The notes under the pieces: model-generated
What the model saw: only the letters and a program-made list of their open reading frames with translations
What the model was told of the DNA's origin: nothing
The model's database searches: none
Shown: positions 19,965 to 25,830 of the stretch, in pieces
Layout: the number at the start of each line of letters is the position of its first letter
Position numbering within the stretch: the first letter of the stretch is position 1
Assembly (NCBI RefSeq): GCF_937951745.1
Contig: NZ_CALFBQ010000014.1
Location: forward strand, 1-64,000
Source of the DNA: an uncultured Chloroflexus sp.
GTDB taxonomy: Bacteria > Chloroflexota > Chloroflexia > Chloroflexales > Chloroflexaceae
DNA length: 64,000 bases
Direction: 5' to 3'
Made by a program: the position numbers and the translations under genes

Positions 19965-20975
19965 GTGAGGGTGAGCAGGGAACGTTACGCGGCAGTGATC
20001 GGCTGGGGTATGGCCGTCCCCTCTCGCGTGATCACGAATGATGAGCTGGCACAACGGATTGACACCTCTGATGAGTGGATCCGTACCCGTACCGGCATCC
20101 GTGAACGCCGGGTCGCTGGCCTCGGTGAGAGCACCTCAACCTTCGCAACCGCCGCCGGACGCGAGGCGCTGGCAATGGCGGGAGTCGATGCGACGACCAT
20201 TGATACGGTGATTGTCGCTACCTGCACCCCTGATCGACCGTTCCCCGCGACCGCTTGCACGGTGCAGGCAAATTTGCGAATTCCGCGTGCAATTGCGTTT
20301 GATCTAGTAGCAGCCTGTAGTGGTTTCGTCTACGGACTGACCGTCGCCACAAGCCTGATTAAAAGTGGGGTCAGCCGCCGCCTCTTGCTGATCGGGGCCG
20401 ATATCTTTACCCACTATATCAACTGGGATGACCGAAATACCTGCGTTTTGTTTGGCGATGGCGCTGGCGCAGTTGTGCTAGAAGCGACCGATCAGCCGTT
20501 TGGACTGATCGCTTCCAACCTGAGCGCCGATGGTAACCTCGAAGACCTCATGGCGGTCGATGCCGGCGGCACACGTATGCCGCTCACTGCTGAGCTGCTG
20601 GCTGAAGGCCGGCAATATGTCTATATGAATGGGCGTGAGATCTTTAAGCACGCCGTGCGTGAGATGAGCGATTCAGCGATGCAGGTGGTGCAAGCGGCTG
20701 GGTTAACGATCGACGATATCGCGCTAGTGATCCCGCACCAAGCCAATGTGCGGATCATTGATGCGGTCGCGCGCCGGCTCGAAATTCCACCTGAGCGGGT
20801 GATGATCAATCTCGACCGGTATGGCAACACGTCGGCGGCTTCCATTCCGATTGCCTTGTACGAAGCCGCCCAACAGGGCCGGATCGCATCTGGCGACTAT
20901 GTCTTAGTTACCGCATTTGGCGGTGGTTTAACTTGGGGATCGGGAGTGGTACGCTGGGGCCGTCCGGCGCAGTAA
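19965..20975 (+). CDS. fabH: beta-ketoacyl-ACP synthase III
   Basis: FabH condenses acetyl-CoA with malonyl-ACP to start fatty acid chains. The 336-residue protein shows the catalytic triad: Cys118 in VAACSGF, His in IPHQANVRI and Asn in RYGNTSAASIP. The GTG at 19965 is used here; a second in-frame GTG at 19971, better spaced from GAAAGG, would remove two residues. It opens a fabH-fabD-fabG block that lacks acpP and fabF in this window. Confidence 0.95.
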   Translation: MRVSRERYAAVIGWGMAVPSRVITNDELAQRIDTSDEWIRTRTGIRERRVAGLGESTSTFATAAGREALAMAGVDATTIDTVIVATCTPDRPFPATACTVQANLRIPRAIAFDLVAACSGFVYGLTVATSLIKSGVSRRLLLIGADIFTHYINWDDRNTCVLFGDGAGAVVLEATDQPFGLIASNLSADGNLEDLMAVDAGGTRMPLTAELLAEGRQYVYMNGREIFKHAVREMSDSAMQVVQAAGLTIDDIALVIPHQANVRIIDAVARRLEIPPERVMINLDRYGNTSAASIPIALYEAAQQGRIASGDYVLVTAFGGGLTWGSGVVRWGRPAQ

Positions 20976-21107
20976 GAGGTTCGCTGGGCCGCTCGTTACG
21001 GCCCATGAAGATATAGCGACCTAACACGGACGATGAGCGGTCACGCTGGCGCAATAGTCTAGGGGGGAGAGTAAAGCGCCGGCAGGGAAGGAGAAGGCGG
21101 TCAAACC

Positions 21108-22067
21108 ATGAGCATTGCATGGGTCTTTCCGGGTCAGGGATCGCAGGTAGTTGGCATGGGGCGCGATTTGATCACTGCATCCGCAGCAGCGCGCCAAATT
21201 TTTGCCACTGCGGACGAGACGCTTGATTTCGGGTTGAGTGAATTGTGCTTTAGCGGGCCAGAAACCGACCTCACTGCCACAGAGAATGCGCAACCGGCGC
21301 TCCTCACCACCAGCATGGCCCTCTTAGCCGCGATGCGCGAACTATTGGGCGACCGGCTCGAACCACCGATTGCGGTCGCTGGTCACAGCCTTGGTGAATA
21401 CTCAGCCTTGGTTGCAGGCGGTTCATTGGATTTCATCACGGCGTTGCGCCTCGTGCGTCGCCGGGGCGAATTGATGGCCGCCGCTCACGATGGCAGCATG
21501 GCAGCCGTCATCGGGCTTGATACCGGCATCCTTGAACAGATCTGTCAAGAAGTGAGCACAGCACTTCAACACCACAATCAATTGCACGGCACCGTTGTCA
21601 TCGCTAATTACAATGCCCCTGATCAACTCGTGATCAGCGGCAGTGTAGTGGCAGTGGAACATGCCAGCCTACTCGCCAAAAGTCGCGGCGCTAAACGTGT
21701 GATTCCGCTCAAAGTCAGCGCAGCCTTCCATTCCCCCTTGATGGTCGAAGCCGCCGAAGGTATGGCGCAGGCGATTGCCAGCGCGACCGTACACGATCTA
21801 GAAATTCCGCTGATTGCCAATGTCACTGCTAAACCGCTCCGCGATGCCGATGATGTGCGGCGCGAAATGGTCGCGCAAGTGGTAGCGCCGGTGCGTTGGA
21901 TTGCGTCAGTACAGCACATGGTAGCGATGGGGGTCGAAACCTTCGTCGAGATCGGACCGGGAAGAGTATTGACCGGGTTGATTCGCCGGATTGCGCCAGC
22001 AGCGCGCTTGATCAACATTGCCACCTTCGAGGATGTACGGGCATTGACGGCAATGCAACCGGTATAG
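21108..22067 (+). CDS. fabD: malonyl-CoA:ACP transacylase
   Basis: FabD loads malonate onto acyl carrier protein. The 319-residue protein begins with the FPGQGSQVVGMGRDL motif, has the nucleophile Ser in GHSLGEYSAL and the catalytic His in SAAFHSPLM, and ends with EIGPGRVLTGLIRR. AAGGAG lies upstream. The 132-base spacer from fabH holds no gene. Confidence 0.96.
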   Translation: MSIAWVFPGQGSQVVGMGRDLITASAAARQIFATADETLDFGLSELCFSGPETDLTATENAQPALLTTSMALLAAMRELLGDRLEPPIAVAGHSLGEYSALVAGGSLDFITALRLVRRRGELMAAAHDGSMAAVIGLDTGILEQICQEVSTALQHHNQLHGTVVIANYNAPDQLVISGSVVAVEHASLLAKSRGAKRVIPLKVSAAFHSPLMVEAAEGMAQAIASATVHDLEIPLIANVTAKPLRDADDVRREMVAQVVAPVRWIASVQHMVAMGVETFVEIGPGRVLTGLIRRIAPAARLINIATFEDVRALTAMQPV

Positions 22068-22075
22068 AGAATGCT

Positions 22076-22822
22076 ATGGAATTGCAGGGGCAGGTCGCCA
22101 TTATTACCGGTGGCGCGCGTGGAATCGGGCGCGCCACGACCATTGAGCTGGCTGCTGCCGGGGCGCGTGTATTGATCAACTATCAACGCAGCGCCTCGGC
22201 GGCTGAAGCCTTGGCGGCTGAAATGATCGCAAAGGGCAGTGATGCGTTTGCTTTTCAGGCGAACGTTACCGATGAGCAGGCAGTCGAGCGAATGGTACAC
22301 GCGGCGCTGGAACGCTGGGGCCGGATCGATGTGCTAGTGAATAATGCCGGCATCACTGCCGATGCACCACTGGCTCGCCTACGGCCAGAGCAATGGCAAC
22401 AGGTAATTGAAACCGACCTGACCTCAGTGTTTCTCTGTTGCCGCGCTGTCGTACCAATCATGCGCGCCGCTGGCTATGGCCGAATCGTATCAGTCAGTTC
22501 GCTGGCGGCACTGGCTGGCAATGTCGGCCAGACGAATTATGCCGCCGCCAAAGCCGGTATTATCGGTTTGAGCCGCTCGCTCGCTCGTGAAGTCGCTCGT
22601 GATGGCATTACCGTCAATGTCGTCGCTCCCGGTTATATCGAAACCGATATGGTGGAAACCGTGCCGGAAGCATTACGGGCATGGGCGCTGCAAGCGATCG
22701 CGTTGGGACGGTTTGGCCGACCTGAAGAGGTCGCCGCCGCTATCCGGTTTCTCGTCTCTCCACGCGCTTCGTACATTACCGGCCATGTCTTGACCATTGA
22801 CGGAGGTTGGGTGATGCCGTAG
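22076..22822 (+). CDS. fabG: 3-oxoacyl-ACP reductase FabG
   Basis: This is a 248-residue short-chain dehydrogenase of FabG type that reduces 3-oxoacyl-ACP with NADPH. The TGGARGIG cofactor loop, NNAG, the Ser of VSVSSLAAL, and the catalytic YAAAK motif are all intact, as is the C-terminal DGGWVMP. The gene starts eight bases after fabD. It is the active partner of the degenerate paralogue that follows. Confidence 0.93.
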   Translation: MELQGQVAIITGGARGIGRATTIELAAAGARVLINYQRSASAAEALAAEMIAKGSDAFAFQANVTDEQAVERMVHAALERWGRIDVLVNNAGITADAPLARLRPEQWQQVIETDLTSVFLCCRAVVPIMRAAGYGRIVSVSSLAALAGNVGQTNYAAAKAGIIGLSRSLAREVARDGITVNVVAPGYIETDMVETVPEALRAWALQAIALGRFGRPEEVAAAIRFLVSPRASYITGHVLTIDGGWVMP

Positions 22823-22873
22823 GGTTGTTGTTGCGCGGCAATGACAGTACCACGGAACGGGATAGAAGCAACA

Positions 22874-23623
22874 ATGATCGACTTCACCGGACAAGTAGCA
22901 ATCGTTACCGGCGGGTCAGGAGGGATCGGGCAAGCGATTGTGCGCGGCCTCGCCCGGTATGGCGCTCGGGTGTTGGTAGGGTACCATCACGACGAGGCTG
23001 CTGCTGCCAGCATTGTCGCCGTGGCCCAATCGTTTGGCAGCGAAGCCGCAGCACTAGCAATCGATGTCCGCGAAGTTGACAGTGGGCCTGCGTTGGTGAA
23101 TGCAGCCCTCGAGCGGTGGGGCCAACTTGACATCTTGATCAATAGCGCGGGAATTGCCGATTATGGCCCGCTGAGCGAGATGAGCAGCGAGCGCTGGCGA
23201 CAAACGATCCAAACCAACCTGAGTGGGGTCTATCACACCTGCCGCGCAGTCCTACGCCCGATGATGCAACAGCGCTACGGACGGATCATCAATCTGGCTG
23301 CACTGTACGGATCCTCTGGCTTTCCCGGTCAAGCCGACTTTGCCGCAGCAGCCGGCGGGATTATCGGGCTAACACGCGCCTTAGCCCGCGAAGCGGCGCC
23401 GTGGCAGATTACAGTTAATGCGGTCGCACCGGGAATGATCGAGACAGACCTCGTGCAAGCCATTCCGGCAGAAATCCAAGCGTGGAGCGCTAATATCATC
23501 GCGTTACGCCGATTGGGGAAGCCCGAAGAGGTTGCCGCCGCCGTGCTCTTCCTCGCGTCACCGGCAGCATCGTATATCACCGGACAGACGCTGGCCGTCG
23601 ATGGCGGCTGGACGATGGCGTAG
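22874..23623 (+). CDS. FabG-like SDR protein lacking catalytic residues
   Basis: The 249-residue protein is clearly a paralogue of the preceding FabG and keeps the cofactor loop TGGSGGIG and the DGGW end. Aligned to it, however, the catalytic Ser is Ala143, Tyr is Phe156 and Lys is Ala160 ([10 protein letters not shown] in place of QTNYAAAKAG). NNAG is NSAG. It is therefore predicted to be catalytically dead but may still fold, bind NADP(H), or pair with FabG. The frame is intact, so it is not a decayed pseudogene. ATG 22874 gives the family start; an earlier ATG at 22841 is possible. Confidence 0.85.
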
Positions 23624-23655: not shown

Positions 23656-24170
23656 TAAAAACGCAGATGCGGTAGTTGCCTACCGCATCGCGACTAAATG
23701 GATCAACTTAGATACCCGCCTACTTTTTACTTACACCCTCTCGGAACCCAACCACCTCGAGAGTTCATCAGAGCGGCAAGGATGTTCCAAACCACCGTAC
23801 CCTCACAGGTCCTTTAGCTGCTCCGCCTTCAGCAGATTATGCGCCGGGCTAGCTTTTGCTATCGGATTATCTCACCATCTAGCGTGGGACAGCAGCTCTT
23901 TCTTACCCAACGCGGTGAGTTTGTTTGGGAGGCAACCGTACGGCTCGCAGAGCATCCGATTACTCAGCAGTAATCCGGCGCTTGTCTGTTCGTCTCCCCG
24001 ACCCCATCATCATTACTTTTTTCGATGGTGGTCGTTTCCCCGAACTTACGCTGCACCTCTCTCACCTTACCCACACATAACTCTTTACATTAGAGGTGAA
24101 GCGCTTGCCTTCCGGTTGCACGTAAGTGGTTAGTTCCTCCTTCCGATTTCTGATGTTCTCTCGAGGCTAC
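23656..24170 (-). ncRNA. candidate large structured non-coding RNA
   Basis: No credible gene occupies this 700-base gap. On the - strand a promoter and a terminator frame about 515 nt of self-complementary sequence. The strand at 24149-24166 pairs with 23755-23772 (9 bp, an AA/AA internal loop, 7 bp), closing a 412-nt body. Inside are a long hairpin 23988-24045 (5 bp, a GGGAAA/GGGAGA internal loop, then 10 bp with one bulge), a 9-bp hairpin with one bulge at 23956-23978, and a two-part stem 23871-23919. A 7-bp pseudoknot is possible between 23816-23822 and 23891-23897. I see no RNase P, tmRNA, SRP or 6S hallmark motifs. Confidence 0.7.
23657..23692 (-). terminator. intrinsic terminator of the - strand RNA
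   Basis: Read on the - strand, GATGCGGTAG, a GCAA loop and CTACCGCATC (23666-23689) form a perfect 10-bp stem, extended by outer C/G pairs and followed by five U (23657-23661). It ends the ncRNA transcript. It faces the end of the FabG-like gene, so it may also limit read-through from that side. Confidence 0.8.
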
Positions 24171-24176
24171 GGCCTG

Positions 24177-24205
24177 ATCATAGCACCCTGAAGGTCAAAA
24201 ATCAA
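24177..24205 (-). promoter_or_regulatory. promoter of the - strand structured RNA
   Basis: On the - strand TTGATT (24205-24200) and TATGAT (24182-24177) are exactly 17 bases apart, in a visibly AT-rich stretch. The start point would fall near 24170, four bases ahead of the closing helix of the RNA. The 142 bases between this promoter and the upstream desaturase stop contain nothing else I recognise. Confidence 0.75.
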
Positions 24206-24324
24206 GTACTTAATCGTAACTTAACGATGATAAAACACAATTCTTTGTGCTATCAGCCATCGTAGGGTTAAAAAGCTGTTAAAAACCCCGAAGGCATATC
24301 GATAGGAGTGTAAAGCATTTTTAT

Positions 24325-25815
24325 TCACACAGGCATGTCAGCCGCGATCCGGGCAGCCACTGCTTGCCCCGAAAGCAAAACTAGTGGGATACCACCACCG
24401 GGATGGGTGCCGCCACCAACAAAGTATAGGCCGCGCACCCGGCGCGCGCGCAGGGGAGGGCGGGCAAAGGCGGCAAAGGGTGAATTGGAGCTAATGCCAT
24501 AGATTGAGCCAAAAGTGGCGTTGTAACACTGCGCCAGATCGCGCGGCGTCCAATGATAGGTGTAGCGAATAGCGTGACGCAAACCGTGCAGACCCATCGT
24601 CTCAAGTTTGGTGATGATGTGATCGCGGTAGGCCGGCAGCACAGCTTCCCAATCGATCCGGCCATCGTCAACTGGCGCATTCACCAACACAAACAGATTC
24701 ATGTGACCGGGCGGCGCATGGGCAGGGTCGGAACGACATGTCGCGGCGATATACACCGTCGGATCGAGCGCGGGACGGCGATCGCGCACGATGGCCTGAA
24801 ACTCCGCCGGGTAATCGCCGCCAAAGAAGATGTTGTGGTGGACTAATTGCGGAAAATCGCCCTCAACGCCGAGAAAGAGCACCACCCCACTGTATGACGG
24901 TTCAATCCGGGCGAGACGCGCTGCCTCGCGCTGGCCGCCGGGGATCAGCCGCTCGTAAGCGTATTGCGGATCGGCGTTCACCACCGCTGCCGCAGCCGGC
25001 AAGACAGTACCCTCGACCAGCCGCACCCCGCACACCCTGCCATTCTCAACCATGATCTCGGCCACCGGCGCGCGCGTGCGCAGCTCAACCCCTAGCTCCT
25101 CAGCCAAGCGGACCAGCGCCACGGCCAATTGGTACATCCCGCCGCGCACATACCAACCACCTTCCGCCAGCTCAATGTAGGCGATCACATTGAAGGTAGC
25201 TGGTGACAGGTAGGGCGAAGAGCCGTTGTAGGTCGCATAGCGATTAAAGAGCTGGCGTAGATGCGGGCTACGGAAGAACGAGCGCACCGCTGCATCAACA
25301 CTGCGCAGCGCATCAATGCGCAGGGCATGGCGTGCCATCGTTGGCGTGATCAACTCGCGCAGACCATCGAACGGGCGCAGCAGGAAGGGGCCAGCCACCG
25401 CATCATAAATTCGGGATGTGTGAGCCATAAAACGAAAGAAATGGGGCACATCCGCCGGGCTGATGCGCTCGATCTCTTGGATCAACTGGGGTAATCGCTG
25501 CCACGCATCAAAGCGGGCGCCATCGGGCCAGAAATAGCGGCAGGTCGGCTCCACTTGCTCAAGGCAGAGGTAGTCGTCCATGCAGCGATTAGCGGCGGCG
25601 AACAGATCGCGGATCACCCATGGCATTGTCAACAACGAGGGGCCGGTATCGAAGGTATACCCTTCAGCCTGATGGAGGTTCAGCTTGCCGCCTAACCGTT
25701 CGTTCTTTTCACAGAGGATGACACGGCGGCCTTGGGCAGCCAACCGGATTGCCGCCGCTAAACCACCCAAACCACCGCCGATAATGATTATCGGAAGTTG
25801 CGTTGTATGCGCCAT
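24325..25815 (-). CDS. CrtI/CrtD-type carotenoid desaturase or related FAD oxidoreductase
   Basis: This 496-residue flavoprotein starts with the dinucleotide-binding motif [24 protein letters not shown] and has the family-typical GYTFDTGPSLLTMP segment and the C-terminal LYFVGGGTHPGGGIPLVLLSGQAVAARI. These place it with phytoene desaturases, 1-hydroxycarotenoid 3,4-desaturases (CrtD) and carotenoid oxygenases of the CrtI fold, but the exact step cannot be told from sequence alone. A second family member lies at 39745-41226. ATG 25815 is preferred over an upstream TTG at 25827. Confidence 0.88.
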   Translation of the reverse strand: MAHTTQLPIIIIGGGLGGLAAAIRLAAQGRRVILCEKNERLGGKLNLHQAEGYTFDTGPSLLTMPWVIRDLFAAANRCMDDYLCLEQVEPTCRYFWPDGARFDAWQRLPQLIQEIERISPADVPHFFRFMAHTSRIYDAVAGPFLLRPFDGLRELITPTMARHALRIDALRSVDAAVRSFFRSPHLRQLFNRYATYNGSSPYLSPATFNVIAYIELAEGGWYVRGGMYQLAVALVRLAEELGVELRTRAPVAEIMVENGRVCGVRLVEGTVLPAAAAVVNADPQYAYERLIPGGQREAARLARIEPSYSGVVLFLGVEGDFPQLVHHNIFFGGDYPAEFQAIVRDRRPALDPTVYIAATCRSDPAHAPPGHMNLFVLVNAPVDDGRIDWEAVLPAYRDHIITKLETMGLHGLRHAIRYTYHWTPRDLAQCYNATFGSIYGISSNSPFAAFARPPLRARRVRGLYFVGGGTHPGGGIPLVLLSGQAVAARIAADMPV

Positions 25816-25830
25816 AGCGTCACACAAGAT

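Follow-up and report, generated by a model that had tools for sequence, protein, structure and literature searches.

What is encoded by the approximately 700-base gap that lies, on the minus strand, between the genes for a FabG-like short-chain dehydrogenase (positions 22841-23623, plus strand) and a crtI-type phytoene desaturase (positions 24325-25827, minus strand)? The original prediction, made from the window (the whole stretch of 64,000 nucleotides that was analyzed), placed here a large, ornate RNA of an unknown class. This proposal was supported by covariation, by a conserved promoter and terminator and by the lack of any Rfam match, and the gap was shown, on comparative grounds, to be the site of a gene for a structured, noncoding and conserved RNA. 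We regard it as a new RNA family of the Chloroflexales.

The RNA gene and its transcription signals

The inferred transcript, predicted from the positions of the promoter and terminator and from conservation, spans approximately 515 nt (23656-24170, minus strand). As judged by alignment and folding, it contains a conserved body of approximately 420 nt (23751-24170, minus strand; approximately 340-480 nt in relatives), and the remaining approximately 95 nt comprise a lineage-specific tail plus the terminator. Both neighboring genes lie outside the RNA: the desaturase gene, whose linkage is conserved, is located upstream, and the dehydrogenase gene is convergent. The latter belongs to a region (19965-23623) in which fabH-, fabD- and two fabG-like genes follow one another and converge on the RNA gene.

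The gap had been described as devoid of genes, and indeed no ORF within the RNA region is conserved among the relatives. A hidden protein or leader peptide was rejected, since the place and length of the ORFs vary between species and the alignment contains frame-breaking indels. The RNA gene is present in a single copy in its own genome, and a repetitive element was therefore also rejected.

The predicted promoter (24177-24205, minus strand) consists of a -35 box (TTGATT), a 17-nt spacer and an extended -10 box (TG-C-TATGAT). The TTGATT-17-TATGAT arrangement was thus found as first proposed, with the addition of the extended TG, and the sequence TGCTATnAT is kept in nearly all relatives. Located 7-11 nt upstream of the -35 box in all lineages is a dyad, ATCGTTAAGTTACGAT (24213-24228, minus strand; consensus ATCGTnAAnnnnCGAT), the presumed site of an activator or other regulator. 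The genome contains its exact sequence only once, so that a transcription factor binding it would apparently have a single target; one-mismatch matches are at chance level (13 vs 13 in the control), and a broader dyad regulon was rejected. When 158 genomes of the class were scanned with the composite dyad/-35/-10 pattern, exactly one match was obtained in each of 48 genomes, and the reversed-pattern control gave none in the class genomes. All but one of these matches precede this RNA; the exception, in genome G072, has no RNA downstream and was judged to be due to chance. This pattern of occurrence implies either a regulator devoted to this gene or a promoter element of very high specificity.

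At the opposite end, the putative intrinsic terminator (23656-23689, minus strand) is formed by a 10-bp stem with a GCAA loop (23689-23666), followed by the U tract TGCGTTTTT, in agreement with the terminator originally proposed. It is conserved within the genus, and the other families have their own terminators immediately after the closing helix P1. The positions of the promoter and terminator are conserved among relatives, and independent transcription of the RNA, predicted to start at approximately 24170, is implied. In several genera of the Chloroflexaceae, tandem repeats of approximately 28-30 nt (ACGTTCGGTAACCTAGCGGAAACTGTACGC) follow the closing helix and precede the terminator (e.g. 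L059:1888-2002 and L066:1198-1279), which would give the RNA a 3′ tail made of repeats.

Secondary structure and covariation

The body had been described as highly self-complementary, which was confirmed by folding: the minimum free energy of the minus strand is -193.3 kcal/mol, compared with -167.4 ± 6.1 kcal/mol for shuffled sequences (z = -4.28), and none of the 100 shuffles folded as well. RNAalifold analysis of 16 full-length sequences yielded 79 base pairs, 46 of which have changed on both sides with pairing kept. In the alignment of the core domain (31 sequences), 93.9% of the pair cells are paired, vs 75.5% after shuffling and 32-41% with slid partners; both sides have changed in 34 of the 39 pairs, and the covariation score is 0.576 vs 0.213. 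The same picture was obtained with 41 sequences, including those of family f2 and the paralogues described below. Over the 31-41 divergent sequences 92-94% of the core cells are paired (shuffled, 71-75%; slid, 31-41%), percentages that are somewhat inflated, since the core alignments were fitted to a covariance model. The compensatory changes do not depend on this fitting alone, because they are also seen in the first MAFFT alignment.

We also applied a tree-aware G-test, in which substitutions are simulated on a FastTree tree in an R-scape-like manner. Without restriction it identified three significant pairs, all nested and within the predicted fold, and within the structure set 10 of 99 pairs were significant. 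Compensatory changes therefore exceed the relatedness controls, as expected of a structured RNA, and they are abundant in both elements for which covariation had been proposed as a check, i.e. the closing helix and the purine-loop hairpin. A possible pseudoknot, suggested at the outset, found no such support, the significant pairs of the unrestricted test being nested only.

The closing helix P1 is formed by GCCTCGAGAG (24158-24167, minus strand; 5′ strand) and CTCTCGAGGT (23754-23763, minus strand; 3′ strand). By a direct complementarity search it was recovered from 31-33 of the 33 members of the family, and it is present across the order. The helix was originally drawn as 9 bp, an AA/AA loop and 7 bp, which is exact for this sequence; its outer 10 bp are compensated order-wide, but the inner 7 bp are well supported only within the genus.

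Within P1 lies the conserved core domain (23931-24121, minus strand), on which the covariance models R1-R3 are based. Its stem is closed by 24113-24121/23931-23938, and the arm, closed by H4/H5, bears three hairpins: H6/H7, H8/H9 and H10. The second of these (23984-24049, minus strand) has the sequence GUUCG-[GGGAAA]-CGACC ... GGUCG-[GGGAGA]-CGAAC, with a symmetric 6×6 purine internal loop between the covarying helices H8 and H9. This hairpin was recovered exactly as predicted: its two helices have 96.6% and 90.2% of their cells paired (z = -4.95 for the hairpin), 20 of 41 sequences have exactly this loop and most of the others differ from it slightly, and it is present in the paralogues too. 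Consecutive G.A and A.G pairs could form in this loop. The most conserved segment of the RNA is hairpin H10, AAGCGCCGGATTACTG... (23951-23982, minus strand), with 99.2%/93.1% of cells paired and compensation at most pairs. The 3′ domain (23799-23930, minus strand) comprises H11-H17 and includes a near-invariant GCAAAAGCTGGC hairpin at approximately 23843-23866.

Unpaired positions are not enriched in letters conserved at the 95% level (26 of 220, vs 55 of 198 paired positions), and the alignment contains no long conserved unpaired stretch.

Distribution, genomic context and a paralogue

A blastn search revealed full-length copies, 80-94% identical, in all 7 other members of the genus examined, and matches to part of the RNA in further genera of the family; the proposed comparison with Chloroflexota genomes thus traced the RNA in full length throughout the genus and in divergent form in further families. 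The core covariance model R1 gave matches in 44 of 82 genomes of the order, and R2, built from more members, in 49 of 158 genomes of the class, all of them inside the order. Two further genomes (G034 and G057) were added with R3, which gave no match outside the order in a search of 400 genomes of the phylum, under strict filters that may miss distant members. The promoter-pattern search contributed two divergent members from family f3: G032 (model E value 7e-5) and G060 (E value 0.18), the latter having the promoter, the core GACGTAAGTTC..GAAAG..GTGAACA, the closing helix and a terminator.

Homologues were thus identified in 53 of the 82 Chloroflexales genomes, including the two weak ones of f3, and none in the sampled genomes of other orders of the class and phylum. 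The RNA family appears to be ancestral to the Chloroflexales. No copy was detected in genus g20 (Herpetosiphon-like), in g21 or in several further genomes, which indicates that the RNA is not universally essential; its function is probably important. There is usually one copy per genome. A second, weak match in G025 (C2), which has no promoter box, was judged to be due to chance. Genomes G002, G004 and G030 are those which we take to be Chloroflexus aurantiacus J-10-fl, C. aggregans and Roseiflexus RS-1, respectively. The RNA therefore appears to be present in complete genomes of these bacteria, which makes direct expression, pull-down and cryo-EM tests possible.

The genomes of the Roseiflexus type (g23 and g27) contain a second, shorter copy of the RNA (approximately 340 nt). 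This paralogue has (i) its own promoter, CTTGTAAA..TATACT, (ii) a different upstream element, TTGCACArCAAACTGCA.., and (iii) its own P1, and it is located between genes for a short-chain dehydrogenase and for an M50-peptidase/cNMP-binding protein. Its loci are L115:4230-4810 (plus strand), L116, L117, L118, L119, L120 and L125. In genome G068 the paralogue is the only copy.

In 45 of the 52 main-copy loci (families f1, f4 and f2) a gene for a crtI-type desaturase is located directly upstream of the RNA, on the same strand. In G025 it is approximately 2 kb away, in G018, G056 and f3 it is not upstream of the RNA, and in G042 the contig ends at this point. The linkage is a weak hint that the RNA might act in the physiology of membranes or isoprenoids. 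An RNA specific for phototrophy was rejected: 11 carriers have no reaction-centre (PF00124) match over the cut-off, and many phototrophs, e.g. g21, do not have the RNA. A mobile or phage-borne RNA was also rejected, since the synteny is conserved and no match was found in collections of phage, plasmid, E. coli and viral sequences.

A location directly downstream of crtI in so many loci would be expected of a cis-acting element, i.e. of a 3′ part of the crtI mRNA that stabilizes or regulates this message. Such an element is very improbable, as a strongly conserved promoter stands between crtI and the RNA, and the RNA occurs both without crtI in the genomes of f3 and as a paralogue elsewhere. 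The same linkage could be accounted for by a base-pairing regulatory RNA, a large sRNA whose fold would display a seed against mRNAs, perhaps those of the neighboring carotenoid or fatty-acid genes; the separate promoter, preceded by a conserved dyad, is also reminiscent of condition-responsive sRNAs. However, this RNA is far longer than typical sRNAs, its structure is more conserved, it offers no long unpaired conserved stretch that might act as a seed, and it persists without an adjoining crtI in G018, G056, G057, G060 and G032. We consider a role of this kind unlikely.

Possible function and relation to known RNAs

The features described above are best accommodated by an independent gene whose product is a structured noncoding RNA that would act in trans. 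On balance, and as far as the pattern of conservation can indicate, we favor the view that a ribonucleoprotein, or a similar particle dependent on tertiary structure, has this RNA as its core. The RNA would be transcribed from approximately 24170, its synthesis would be set by a dedicated regulator acting at the upstream dyad, and it would work in trans as a folded object. A ribonucleoprotein core is likelier than an antisense-type regulator, because the unpaired letters that are most conserved sit in short stretches within hairpins and internal loops, rather than in a single long seed that is exposed.

The size and complexity of the RNA and the conservation of its internal loops also resemble those of large ribozymes, and its usually single copy and strong conservation at the level of the order would suit a ribozyme as well. 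The conserved core and the purine loop would then constitute a catalytic centre, processing the RNA itself or another RNA. There is no resemblance to any ribozyme family of Rfam, and the predicted ends coincide with the promoter and terminator, so that there is no sign of self-cleavage; a ribozyme is accordingly rather improbable. A broader formulation, which we consider likely, is that of a new class of large natural RNA, ancestral to the Chloroflexales, whose action depends on tertiary structure, be it as a ribonucleoprotein core, as a ribozyme or as an assembly of RNA alone. A regulator of its own would bind the dyad, which the genome contains nowhere else, and the paralogue in genomes of the Roseiflexus type would be controlled differently. 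Few large structured RNAs of bacteria lack an assigned function, and close study of such RNAs has brought new RNA biology to light. The definition of the present one is unusually clear, extending from its promoter and ends to its secondary structure, its distribution over the order and a paralogue.

The original prediction recognized no known RNA class in this sequence, and a search with Rfam 15 (4227 families, including OLE, GOLLD, ROOL, HEARO, 6S, group II intron and Chloroflexi-1) bore this out. No family matched within the window (in the RNA region none up to an E value of 5), and none reached its gathering score in ten relatives; two relatives gave chance-level fragments only. OLE genes are located among isoprenoid genes, and this RNA, likewise large, elaborate and limited to certain lineages, adjoins a carotenoid gene; the Rfam OLE model does not match it, and the phylum, size and secondary structure differ. 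OLE RNA of the Bacillota (approximately 600 nt) is elaborate, has interspersed highly conserved nucleotides, is restricted to limited lineages and has an unresolved biochemical function (PMC9723947, PMC12265935). GOLLD and ROOL are also large ornate RNAs of unknown function, shown by cryo-EM to form RNA homo-oligomers (PMC12286853). They resemble this RNA in being large and ornate, but their Rfam models do not match it, and it is chromosomal, has conserved synteny and matches nothing in the searched collections of phages, plasmids and viruses. The likeness to OLE, GOLLD and ROOL is loose, and by the tests made the RNA belongs to none of the three. Chloroflexi-1 RNA (RF01698), a candidate motif reported from Chloroflexus aggregans (PMC2864571), differs in that its Rfam model gives no match here. 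We found no earlier report of this RNA in open-access full texts; subscription journals may hold one.

Several other candidates were rejected. 6S RNA is a hairpin of approximately 180-200 nt with a central bubble, unlike the branched architecture of approximately 420 nt found here, which has no Rfam match. A tmRNA gene scores over the cut-off on contig C7 and none is present in the window, where there is no conserved ORF. The resemblance of GAGCCGTACGGTT to domain V of group II introns is superficial; a scan of genomes with a 17-nt pattern for this likeness returned scattered loci in unrelated taxa.

One of the large RNAs already known (RNase P, tmRNA, SRP, 6S, group II intron, HEARO/omega RNA or OLE) could in principle, in a diverged form, escape such models, given that search tools are reported to recognize RNase P RNA only in part in Chloroflexus and Roseiflexus (PMC2996960). 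This explanation is scarcely probable, as RNase P RNA and tmRNA are encoded elsewhere in the genome, and there is no Rfam match at an E value of 5, nor any at gathering scores in the relatives. Type A RNase P RNA (RF00010) is similar in its length (approximately 400 nt) and terminal closing helix; its family model does not match at this locus and matches in full length on contig C41 (E value 2.5e-25), where the AACAGAGA and GGTAAGGG elements are present. This RNase P RNA (G000, C41:59439-59873; L052) covers the whole model with 82.7 bits, compared with an Rfam cut-off of 100, and annotation pipelines may therefore miss RNase P RNA in this group.
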